Assembly: GCA_022561985.1 (NCBI GenBank)
Contig: JADFQE010000005.1
Location: forward strand, 1 to 46,900
Length of the DNA: 46,900 nucleotides
Origin: Chloroflexota bacterium
GTDB lineage: Bacteria > Chloroflexota > Dehalococcoidia > Lucifugimonadales > Australimonadaceae
Direction: 5' to 3'
The notes below the pieces were generated by a model. The model was not told where the DNA came from and did not search any database. It worked only from the letters and a program-made list of their open reading frames with translations. Shown in pieces: positions 19,017 through 21,566 of this stretch; within the stretch, counting starts at the first letter, position 1, and each line of letters opens with the position of its first letter. The translations under genes and the position numbers were made by a program.

Positions 19017-20168
19017 CTAGAAGTACCGCCAGAGCCACCACTTCTCGAAGGCCAGCTTCGCCTGGTAGATCAGCGGCGACGGGCCCCAGGTGCGGCTCTT
19101 GCCTCCGCCGAAGGGCGGCCACCCGGCCGGGTAGACGGTGCGGTTCGCGGCGGCGCTCCCGGCGCCGAAGGCGAGCAGTCATATGGTGTGCAGCCGCAGC
19201 GTCTCCGGCCGGCCGCGCCCGGTGATCGCGACGGCCAGGTTGTGCGCGACGACCTCCGCCTCCTGGTGCGCGACGATGCCCGCCTTGGAGGCCGGCACGT
19301 CGGCGCAGTCGCCGATCGCGTACACGTTGTCCCACCGCGTCGCCAGCGTGTCGTAGTCCACGCCGATCCCCGCCCGCGAGTCCACGAGCCCGCTGTCCAG
19401 GAGCACCTGCGCCGGCTCGTGGCGCGGCACCAGGAACAGCAGGTCGTAGGGCAGCGTGTAGCCGTAGAGCGCCCGCACGAGCTTCGCTTCGGGGTCCACC
19501 GACTCCACGGTGAAGCCGTAGTGCTGCTCGATGCCGCGGGCCTTGGACTGTGCGTCCATCCACACGGCCGGGTCGTGCGCCTCGCCGACCGGCTCCGGGT
19601 TGGGCGTGAAGTAGTCGATCTGGACCCGGTCGCGGATGCCGCGCCGCGTGAAGTAGTCGTCCAGCATCCACTGGGTCTCGAAGGGCGCGGGCGGGCAGCG
19701 GTACGGCCCCGGCGGGATGCCGACGACGATGCGGCCGCCCTCGAAACGCTCCAGCGCCTCGCGCGAGCGCACGGCCGCATCGAGCTCCCAGGGGTGGTGC
19801 GCGCCTTCGACCGAGCCCGGCACGAGCTCCGGCGCCGTCCGCAGTCCGAGCGAGATGATGAGGTGGTCGTAGGGCAGCGGCCCGGTGTCGAGGATGACTT
19901 GGCCCGCCTTGACGTCGATCCCGGTGATCTCCGCCTGGACGACGTTCACGTTGCGCCGCTCGAGGCGCTTGAGCTTGCGCTGGATGTCGCTCGGGCGGCG
20001 CTGGCCGACCATCAGGAACATGAACGCGGGCATGTAGACGTGCTCGGAGCGCCGGTCCACCAGCGTCACCTCGTGCTCCGCGCCGAGGGAGCGCCCGAGC
20101 CGCGTCGCGGCGACCACGCCGCCGCTGCCGCCGCCGAGGACGACGATGCTCTGGCGCGCGCCCCTCAC
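19017..20168 (-). CDS. Sulfide:quinone oxidoreductase-like flavoprotein with in-frame TGA at the redox Cys position
   Basis: 383 codons read through one internal TGA (19179-19181, codon 330). The N-terminal FAD motif is LGGGSGG (about 10-16) and the second FAD motif is AIGDCAD (about 285). The first redox cysteine is C158 in PYRCPPAPFE, as in SQR and flavocytochrome c sulfide dehydrogenase. The next redox Cys of that family would fall in LRLHTI-TGA-LLAFGAGSA, precisely at the TGA. The frame then stays open for 53 codons, through AKLAFEKWWLWRYF, the family's C-terminal membrane-binding end, to TAG. Either TGA encodes selenocysteine, or this is a fresh nonsense mutation or base error. The start is GTG at 20168, sharing bases with the upstream TGA stop. 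Family role: sulfide or related thiol oxidation to quinone at the membrane. Confidence 0.75.
19151..19167 (-). promoter_or_regulatory. Hairpin downstream of the in-frame TGA (possible SECIS element)
   Basis: In the mRNA, a 6-bp stem (CGGCGC / GCGCCG) with loop CGGGA starts 12 bases after the TGA. The loop G lies 19 bases after it, within the range reported for bacterial selenocysteine insertion elements. GC-rich hairpins are common here by chance, so this alone proves nothing. Confidence 0.25.
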
Positions 20169-20404
20169 GAAGACCCGCCCGGCGAGCGTCGTCCGCGGAC
20201 ATCCCGCGCGCGCTGCTCGCGCCATGCCGCCTGCTCGTCGCGGCCCTCGTCCACGAGCTCGGCGCCGAAGGTCGACGTCAGCCGCAGGAACGCGGAGAGC
20301 GCCACGTCCGAGGCGTCTCTGGCGAGCTCCGCGGCCCACTCGCGGCCACGCTTCGTCGCCAGCAAGAGGCCGACCACGAGGCCGATGCGCACGAGGAGAC
20401 TCAC
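20165..20404 (-). CDS. Small membrane-anchored protein of unknown function
   Basis: 79 residues with one hydrophobic span at about 2-17 (SLLVRIGLVVGLLLAT), then a charged helical part and a basic tail. I do not recognise the family; it resembles short anchored proteins of the YtxH kind only in layout. Its TGA stop overlaps the GTG start of the SQR-like gene (shared GTGA), implying translational coupling. The start is GTG at 20404, with no good ribosome site, 31 bases after the stop of the DapA-like gene. It may anchor or accompany the flavoprotein. The short direct repeats around 20420-20450 (GGCCTCACCG twice) lie just upstream. Confidence 0.55.
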   Translation of the reverse strand: MSLLVRIGLVVGLLLATKRGREWAAELARDASDVALSAFLRLTSTFGAELVDEGRDEQAAWREQRARDVRGRRSPGGSS

Positions 20405-20435: not shown

Positions 20436-21407
20436 TCACCGGAGGAAGGTGTCCTCGCGGTCGAGGCTCGCGACCACGTCGGAGAAGGGCGGCGCTCCGC
20501 CCTCGACGCCTTCGATCAGGCCGATCTGGCGGAAGAACTGGCCGATCTGCGCGTGGTCGCGGGGCGAGACCGGCTTGTACGGCGGGCACGGGTCGCCCAG
20601 GTCGATGCCGAAGTGGCGCATGGCCGACTTCATCACGGGCGGCAGCCCGTAGGTGGCCCACTTGGCGGGGAACAGCGAGTAGAACCGCTGCCAGCGCTTC
20701 GCCTCGTCCATGTCGCCTTCTCGGAACGCGCGCACGATGCGCGCGCCGATCCGGTTGCCGGGCGGGGGCATGGTCGCGCCCGAGCCGCCCATGATCAGCG
20801 TCATCAGCAGCGGCTGCATCGTCGTGAAGTAACGGGCGTTCCCCGCGAGCTCGATCTCCTCGATGAGCCGCGAGATCTTGACGATGTCGCGGGAGCTCTC
20901 CTTGAAGAGCTGGACGTTGGGTATCTCGCTGAACCGGATCGTCACCTCGATGTTGGGGTCGGCGCCGGGGCCGGGGTTGTGGTAGGCGACGATGGGCAGC
21001 GGGCTCTGGGAGGCGACGAAGGTGAAGTAGTCGATGAGCTCCGCCATGGTCGGCTGTCCGCCCCACGGCCGCAGGGGCATGAGCACCTGGGCGTAGTCCG
21101 CTCCGATGGTCGCGGCATACTCGGCCATGTCGAGGACGACCCGCGGCGAGGGGTGCGACGTCCCGGCGAGCACGGGCACGCGCCCATCGACCATCTCCGT
21201 CCCGATGCGCAGGAGCTCCTTGCGCTCCTCGATCGAGAGCATGGTGTACTCGGCCGCCTCGACGGCACCGATGGAGATGCCGTCCGCGTCGGCGACGATG
21301 AAGTCGATCTCGCGCCCAAGCGCGTCGAAGTCGATGCCACCACCGTCCTTGAACGGCGTGAGGCACGCTCCAATGATGCCGCTGATCGCAGGCAACGCCA
21401 CGTTCAT
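20436..21407 (-). CDS. DapA-family lyase (dihydrodipicolinate synthase/N-acetylneuraminate lyase superfamily)
   Basis: 323 residues, a TIM barrel using a Schiff-base lysine. The Lys is in LFKESSRD (about residue 168), the catalytic Tyr in VAYHNPG (about 140), and the GTS motif near 85-87. Members condense or split pyruvate-type substrates; the divergence from true DapA (MPLRPWGG, PPPGNR) suggests a catabolic aldolase or hydratase rather than lysine synthesis. The start is ambiguous. ATG at 21407 has GAGGAG directly against it, which is too close, while GTG at 21401 has the ideal six-base gap, so translation may begin at GTG. The ribosome site directly follows a palindromic repeat (21413-21437). 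It leads a three-gene minus-strand run. Confidence 0.82.
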   Translation of the reverse strand: MNVALPAISGIIGACLTPFKDGGGIDFDALGREIDFIVADADGISIGAVEAAEYTMLSIEERKELLRIGTEMVDGRVPVLAGTSHPSPRVVLDMAEYAATIGADYAQVLMPLRPWGGQPTMAELIDYFTFVASQSPLPIVAYHNPGPGADPNIEVTIRFSEIPNVQLFKESSRDIVKISRLIEEIELAGNARYFTTMQPLLMTLIMGGSGATMPPPGNRIGARIVRAFREGDMDEAKRWQRFYSLFPAKWATYGLPPVMKSAMRHFGIDLGDPCPPYKPVSPRDHAQIGQFFRQIGLIEGVEGGAPPFSDVVASLDREDTFLR

Positions 21408-21412
21408 CTCCT

Positions 21413-21566
21413 CACAAGGGCACAGCCCTTGACCCACATTTAGTAGGGCCGCTGACCGCAGTATATCGTCCTCGTGCAGGAGCGACCCGGCCAGCGCCCA
21501 GCCGGGGGCCGCCATCAGTCGCGCCCTGCGCTGGCGAGTGGGTGCAGGGCTGTGCCCTGCCCCTTG
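21413..21566. repeat. Element of about 154 bp with inverted palindromic ends (copy 1)
   Basis: The left end, 21413-21437, contains the palindrome CAAGGGC-ACA-GCCCTTG followed by ACCCAC. The right end, from 21538, has the inverse order, GTGGGTGCAGGGC-TGT-GCCCTGC, then CCCCTTG to 21566. It fills the divergent gap between the DapA-like gene and the amidohydrolase. The left 25 bases are identical to those at 28964-28988. The interior contains CCAGCGCC and GCGCTGG segments, also present in the second copy. It could be a miniature non-autonomous mobile element or a divergent regulatory unit. TATACT boxes occur at 21460-21465 (minus) and 21567-21572 (plus). Confidence 0.6.
21460..21465 (-). promoter_or_regulatory. 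Putative -10 box (TATACT) for the DapA-like gene
   Basis: TATACT on the minus strand about 55 bases before the start codon. If used, the palindrome at 21413-21437 would lie in the 5' leader directly before the ribosome site and could control translation by folding. Confidence 0.4.

Follow-up and report, generated by a model that had tools for sequence, protein, structure and literature searches.

A clade of sulfide:quinone oxidoreductase-like genes with an in-frame TGA at the second redox position, predicted to encode selenoproteins

The window, a stretch of 46,900 nucleotides of DNA from a Chloroflexota bacterium, carries on its minus strand a gene for a flavoprotein resembling sulfide:quinone oxidoreductase (SQR; 19017..20168) that is interrupted by a single in-frame TGA. 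Twenty different genomes keep this TGA, and the gene therefore very probably makes a selenium-containing enzyme, with selenocysteine (Sec) predicted at the second redox position. The prediction is based on the conservation of the codon, on the Sec machinery of the genomes and on the coding downstream of the TGA, from which we infer that Sec is incorporated. SQR, whose mechanism depends on a pair of sulfur atoms, is the central sulfide-removing enzyme from bacteria through to the mitochondria of humans.

Translation of 19017-20168 agreed with an earlier note on this DNA, in which one internal TGA had been seen in an SQR-like frame. From the GTG at 20168 to the TAG at 19017-19019 the sole internal stop was the TGA at 19179..19181 (predicted Sec330), which lies between LRLHTI and LLAFGAGSA, and with this codon read as Sec the protein has 383 residues. 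The read-through protein contained the Pfam domains Pyr_redox_2 and FCSD_central. The first redox cysteine, C158 (codon 19695..19697, minus strand), was present in PYRCPPAPFE and is thus intact, as the note had stated. The TGA is followed by 53 sense codons and the TAG (19017..19178, minus strand), which encode the remainder of the C-terminal domain with the end AKLAFEKWWLWRYF; any annotation that ends at the TGA would cut 54 residues from the C-terminus of these proteins.

When 85 homologues were aligned with MAFFT, the first redox column (C158) was Cys in all 85, and the second held Cys (n = 61) or TGA (n = 24) and nothing else, so that an exchange of Cys and TGA was seen at this very site. 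A profile of 53 sequences matched human SQOR (E 2e-77) and placed residue 330 on the Cys of DGYTSCPLVTGY, which is Cys379 of human SQOR, and C158 on Cys201 (numbering according to PMC11039317). Phmmer and profile alignments agreed in this position, and the TGA, previously placed on the second redox Cys by eye, stays there. An AlphaFold model built on the 53-sequence alignment had a mean pLDDT of 93.0 and a pTM of 0.91; with 17 near sequences as input, pLDDT was below 50 for residues 327-383, which was mended by adding Cys-containing relatives. In the model, residue 330 is located in strand 327-335, the first strand of the C-terminal domain, and the part of the protein after the TGA forms strands and a helix with good confidence. 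The corresponding strand of other SQRs holds a conserved Cys flanked by residues of the quinone pocket (PMC9666304). The top 18 entries of a fold search were all SQRs or flavocytochrome c sulfide dehydrogenases (Z 41.4-44.3; rmsd 2.0-2.6 over 363-370 residues), with other flavoproteins at Z 38.6 or less. Pfam, the model and the fold search thus all find the two-dinucleotide-binding flavoprotein fold of the SQR/FCSD type in the window protein, and its redox pair, a Cys and a predicted Sec, stands at the SQR positions.

The read-through protein, used as query against 84,980 genomes, returned 16 full or partial relatives (L002-L017), which were 51-92% identical by segment. In all 16 the TGA occupied the same codon and was followed by the same tail of 53 codons, and their true stops varied between TAG, TAA and TGA. 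Three further genomes of this clade (L048, L050 and L051), all with the TGA, came from a survey of 400 genomes belonging to the phylum of the window. With duplicates of identical contigs and coordinates left out (L049 = L008, L052 = L014, L053 = L016), all 20 distinct genomes, the window included, had the TGA at this codon. The clade members are 51-92% identical to the window protein, and their records are labelled Chloroflexi, Thermomicrobiota and Deltaproteobacteria/Binatia. No Cys member of the clade was found among 297 genomes around a Binatia member.

Downstream of the TGA, substitutions counted by the Nei-Gojobori method gave dN 0.043 and dS 0.314 for the window and L002, dN 0.008 and dS 0.331 for L009 and L010, and dN 0.051 and dS 1.41 for L012 and L013. 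As only 53 codons are compared, the single values are rough, and dN/dS was well below 1, in the same regime as upstream; the 53 codons after the TGA are under purifying selection. Many residues of the tail were invariant in 17 sequences, WWLWR among them, and the tail was conserved in the zero frame straight after the TGA with no start codon common to all members. The TGA shared by 20 genomes, together with a dN well below dS behind it, therefore places this codon beyond chance.

The genome of the window is 88.7% complete and was found to contain the Sec genes for which a search had been proposed. A tRNA-Sec was detected above the Rfam cut-off (68.2 bits) and was called by ARAGORN as tRNA-SeC with the anticodon tca (UCA), and SelA (514.8 bits), SelB (335.5 bits, its end lying on a different contig) and SelD (390 bits) were all present. 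The SelD frame itself (G000:C37:6788-7708, L130) carries a TGA where SelD usually has Sec, in SCAGUAGK, and is therefore an independent witness of Sec decoding within the same genome. SelA was above cut-off in all 13 further clade genomes with the gene that were tested by locus. In the same genus, SelA was not found in the sister genome G001, nor a full SelB in the sister genome G002; we ascribe the missing factors to the incompleteness of these assemblies (MAGs, 88-90% complete). Since selA and selB also occur in many genomes that have only a Cys-form SQR, the sel genes are permissive and not specific, and their presence failed to tell TGA genomes from Cys genomes. Taken with the Cys/TGA exchange and the independent genomes, they nevertheless support the Sec interpretation put forward in the earlier note.

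A hairpin resembling a bacterial SECIS, CGGCGC-CGGGA-GCGCCG, follows the TGA (19151..19167, minus strand), its apical loop starting 17 nt after the codon with G as the second loop position. Most clade members shared this geometry, with a G-containing loop 17-18 nt after the TGA, and the Thermomicrobiota members had a longer stem and the loop GGUCA. Compared with synonymous recodings drawn from the codon usage of the gene itself, the hairpin of the window had p 0.078 by hairpin score, which is a simplified form of our own of the published bacterial SECIS rules and which must be read with the high frequency of hairpins at high G+C content in mind, and p 0.48 by folding energy; against shuffled sequences the folding energy had z -0.51. 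The Thermomicrobiota members reached p 0.008-0.13 by folding energy, and TGA genes of the NF049943 type described below p 0.006 or less by hairpin score. Four pairs of the stem showed no double change when inspected for covariation. A bacterial SECIS after the window TGA is plausible: of what the earlier note had suggested, a hairpin at the right distance was found, only marginally stronger (p ~0.08) than expected from synonymous recodings.

Three explanations other than Sec may be considered for the TGA. A single base change from TGC to TGA, by sequencing error or by a recent nonsense mutation, would suffice to make a pseudogene of an ordinary Cys SQR. Neither a read error nor a fresh mutation is tenable when all 20 genomes, which come from different studies and phyla, have this TGA, and the codons after it are under purifying selection; the probability left for this explanation is practically nil, and it is ruled out by the independent genomes. 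The TGA might instead be a real stop, giving a truncated protein of 329 residues, and the conserved tail would be translated on its own, through reinitiation, or would not be made. TGA does act as a terminator at other places, and in L008-L011 it also ends this very gene. The tail, however, continues the modelled strand 327-335 of the C-terminal domain that holds residue 330, it lacks a shared start codon, and the site is otherwise always Cys. On its zero-frame conservation, the missing common start and the continuity of the strand, a separately translated tail was rejected, and termination at this codon is very improbable as a whole.

The remaining explanation of the three is that UGA is read as Cys or Trp by code reassignment or by a suppressor tRNA, and the Cys of the relatives at this site would be in keeping with it. 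L008-L011, however, use UGA both at the internal site and as the terminator of the same SQR gene, so that UGA is not simply reassigned. A Sec-type tRNA with the UCA anticodon is present, and SelD has a TGA at a known Sec site as well. Reassignment of the genetic code was rejected on these three observations, and insertion of another residue is, taken together, extremely improbable. Sec therefore stays the preferred reading of the codon.

The product of the window gene is probably an FAD-dependent enzyme associated with the membrane, a sulfide:quinone oxidoreductase or a protein close to it in function, with Sec as its second redox residue. The codon UGA330 would be decoded by SelB and tRNA-Sec, aided by the short hairpin behind it. 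In human SQOR, HS- attacks the Cys379-S-S-S-Cys201 bridge, the persulfide is carried in the proposed mechanism by Cys379 and passes from there to an acceptor, and Cys201 forms a charge-transfer complex with FAD, the resulting FADH2 being reoxidised by quinone (PMC11039317). By analogy, hydrosulfide would attack a C158-S(n)-Se330 bridge, and C158 would pass the electrons to FAD and from there to quinone. Residue 330 would carry the sulfane sulfur as a selenopersulfide (Se-S) and hand it to the acceptor, as homology and the chemistry of Sec suggest. Selenium, being a better leaving group with a lower pKa, might at the sulfur-carrying position allow a faster hand-off of sulfur or confer resistance to over-oxidation.

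Judged by homology, sulfide is probably the substrate. An SQR-fold selenoprotein acting on another substrate, such as polysulfide, a persulfide or an organic disulfide, would also be compatible with Sec and competes only with the assignment of SQR function. Identity to solved SQRs is only 20-24%, the proteins form a clade of their own, and the genes have an unusual neighbour of the DHDPS family and a small partner, all of which would fit such a different substrate. Both redox residues are located at SQR positions, however, SQR and FCSD are the best fold matches and the Pfam domain FCSD_central is present, and we regard a substrate other than sulfide as rather unlikely.

Human SQOR and the bacterial SQRs of Acidithiobacillus and Aquifex share with the window protein the fold (Z 42-44), the two redox positions and a C-terminal helix, at 23-24% identity to the solved human and bacterial structures. 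They differ in having Cys at the sulfane-carrying position, where Sec is predicted here. The flavoprotein of flavocytochrome c sulfide dehydrogenase is likewise similar in fold (Z 41-43), in the positions of the redox Cys pair and in FCSD_central; unlike it, the window protein ends in a hydrophobic aromatic helix, and no gene for a cytochrome partner was present among the neighbours that were examined.

Directly upstream of the SQR-like gene lies a gene for a small protein of 79 amino acids (20165..20404, minus strand), the stop of which overlaps the SQR start (GTGA). The protein has a hydrophobic N-terminal stretch and the motif SD...LR.TS.F. With a home-made HMM built from 14 such proteins, it was found directly upstream at every TGA-form locus of the clade for which upstream DNA was available (18 distinct genomes), the weakest match being L051 with 28 bits; L005-L007 had a recognisable part of the protein without the hydrophobic stretch. 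The HMM found it beside none of the Cys-form or NF049943-type loci, most of whose flanks are only about 1.5 kb long, and not beside the Cys paralogue L045 in the sister genome G001. The small protein had no match above cut-off in Pfam or NCBIfam, that to YtxH being below threshold (19.9 bits vs 37.5). Farther upstream follows a gene of the dihydrodipicolinate synthase/aldolase superfamily (20436..21515, minus strand; PF00701, 107.5 bits), which lies beside the SQR gene at 11 of the clade's loci, in genomes labelled Chloroflexota and Binatia. This gene is not a plain DapA, since it fell below the cut-off of every NCBIfam equivalog. The arrangement points to the small protein, the DHDPS-family gene and the SQR as a conserved unit, in which the small hydrophobic protein would probably be a dedicated membrane or assembly partner.

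The nearest named family is NCBIfam NF049943 (SQR_III_seleno, "type III sulfide quinone reductase, selenoprotein subtype"), and because this family, with the motif HxxU, already exists, a selenoprotein SQR is not a new kind. A literature search on this subtype returned only one line in a review table, which lists it with the motif HxxU (PMC13188914), and the deep-Sep paper, in which the family appeared as an NAD(P)/FAD-dependent oxidoreductase of two Desulfosediminicola strains (PMC12013277). Like the window clade, NF049943 has the SQR fold, the TGA at the same redox-Cys column and Cys-containing relatives. The motif fits both, as DGHATU (HATU) in NF049943 and LHTIU (HTIU) in the window clade, and its H is also found in Cys members. 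The window protein scored 251.6 bits and four other clade members 255.6-273.7 bits, all below the cut-off of 525 bits, so that the current cut-off misses the clade; nor does the model single the clade out, because Cys-form neighbours score the same (G038, 258.3 bits). The window protein is about 29-34% identical to the NF049943 type and has a different C-terminal region, and its small upstream gene is not found at loci of that type. TGA and Cys members are mixed in NF049943, where 9 of 32 loci over the cut-off in genomes of the phylum of G454 had the TGA and 23 were without it, whereas the window clade is all TGA.

A tree calculated without the redox column placed the 16 rows of the window clade, all of them TGA, on one side of a branch with 100/99 support and the NF049943 rows elsewhere, separate from them. 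A single clade of all TGA rows was rejected by an AU test (p 0.000136), and the tree needs at least four Cys/TGA changes, in either direction. As the TGA clades are phylogenetically separate, the exchange of Cys and Sec happened more than once. Another TGA row, L089:1888-3144 on the minus strand in the Chloroflexota genome G077, was placed among Cys rows. It belongs to a different SQR subfamily; its TGA, within GDGYU, falls on the same redox column, its tail is intact and a hairpin (GGCCAC-GGU-GUGGCC) is present, and SelA and SelB occur in the genome. This single genome is apparently a third TGA lineage, separate from the others. New relative to the literature and databases searched are the all-TGA window clade, its small partner protein and this third lineage.

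More tentatively, the window clade might represent a stably selenium-dependent SQR lineage, in which Sec was acquired independently of the catalogued Desulfobacterota-type subtype and became fixed, and which gained an obligate small membrane partner; the pair would then be a distinct module for the oxidation of sulfide (or polysulfide), with selenium at the sulfane-carrying position. Because nature has repeatedly replaced Cys by Sec at this position, matched Sec and Cys enzymes are at hand for testing what the residue does and, more generally, why Sec is kept where Cys works. Paralogous SQRs of the TGA form and the Cys form were found within the same genome in G001 (L031 and L045), G701, G743 and G801.
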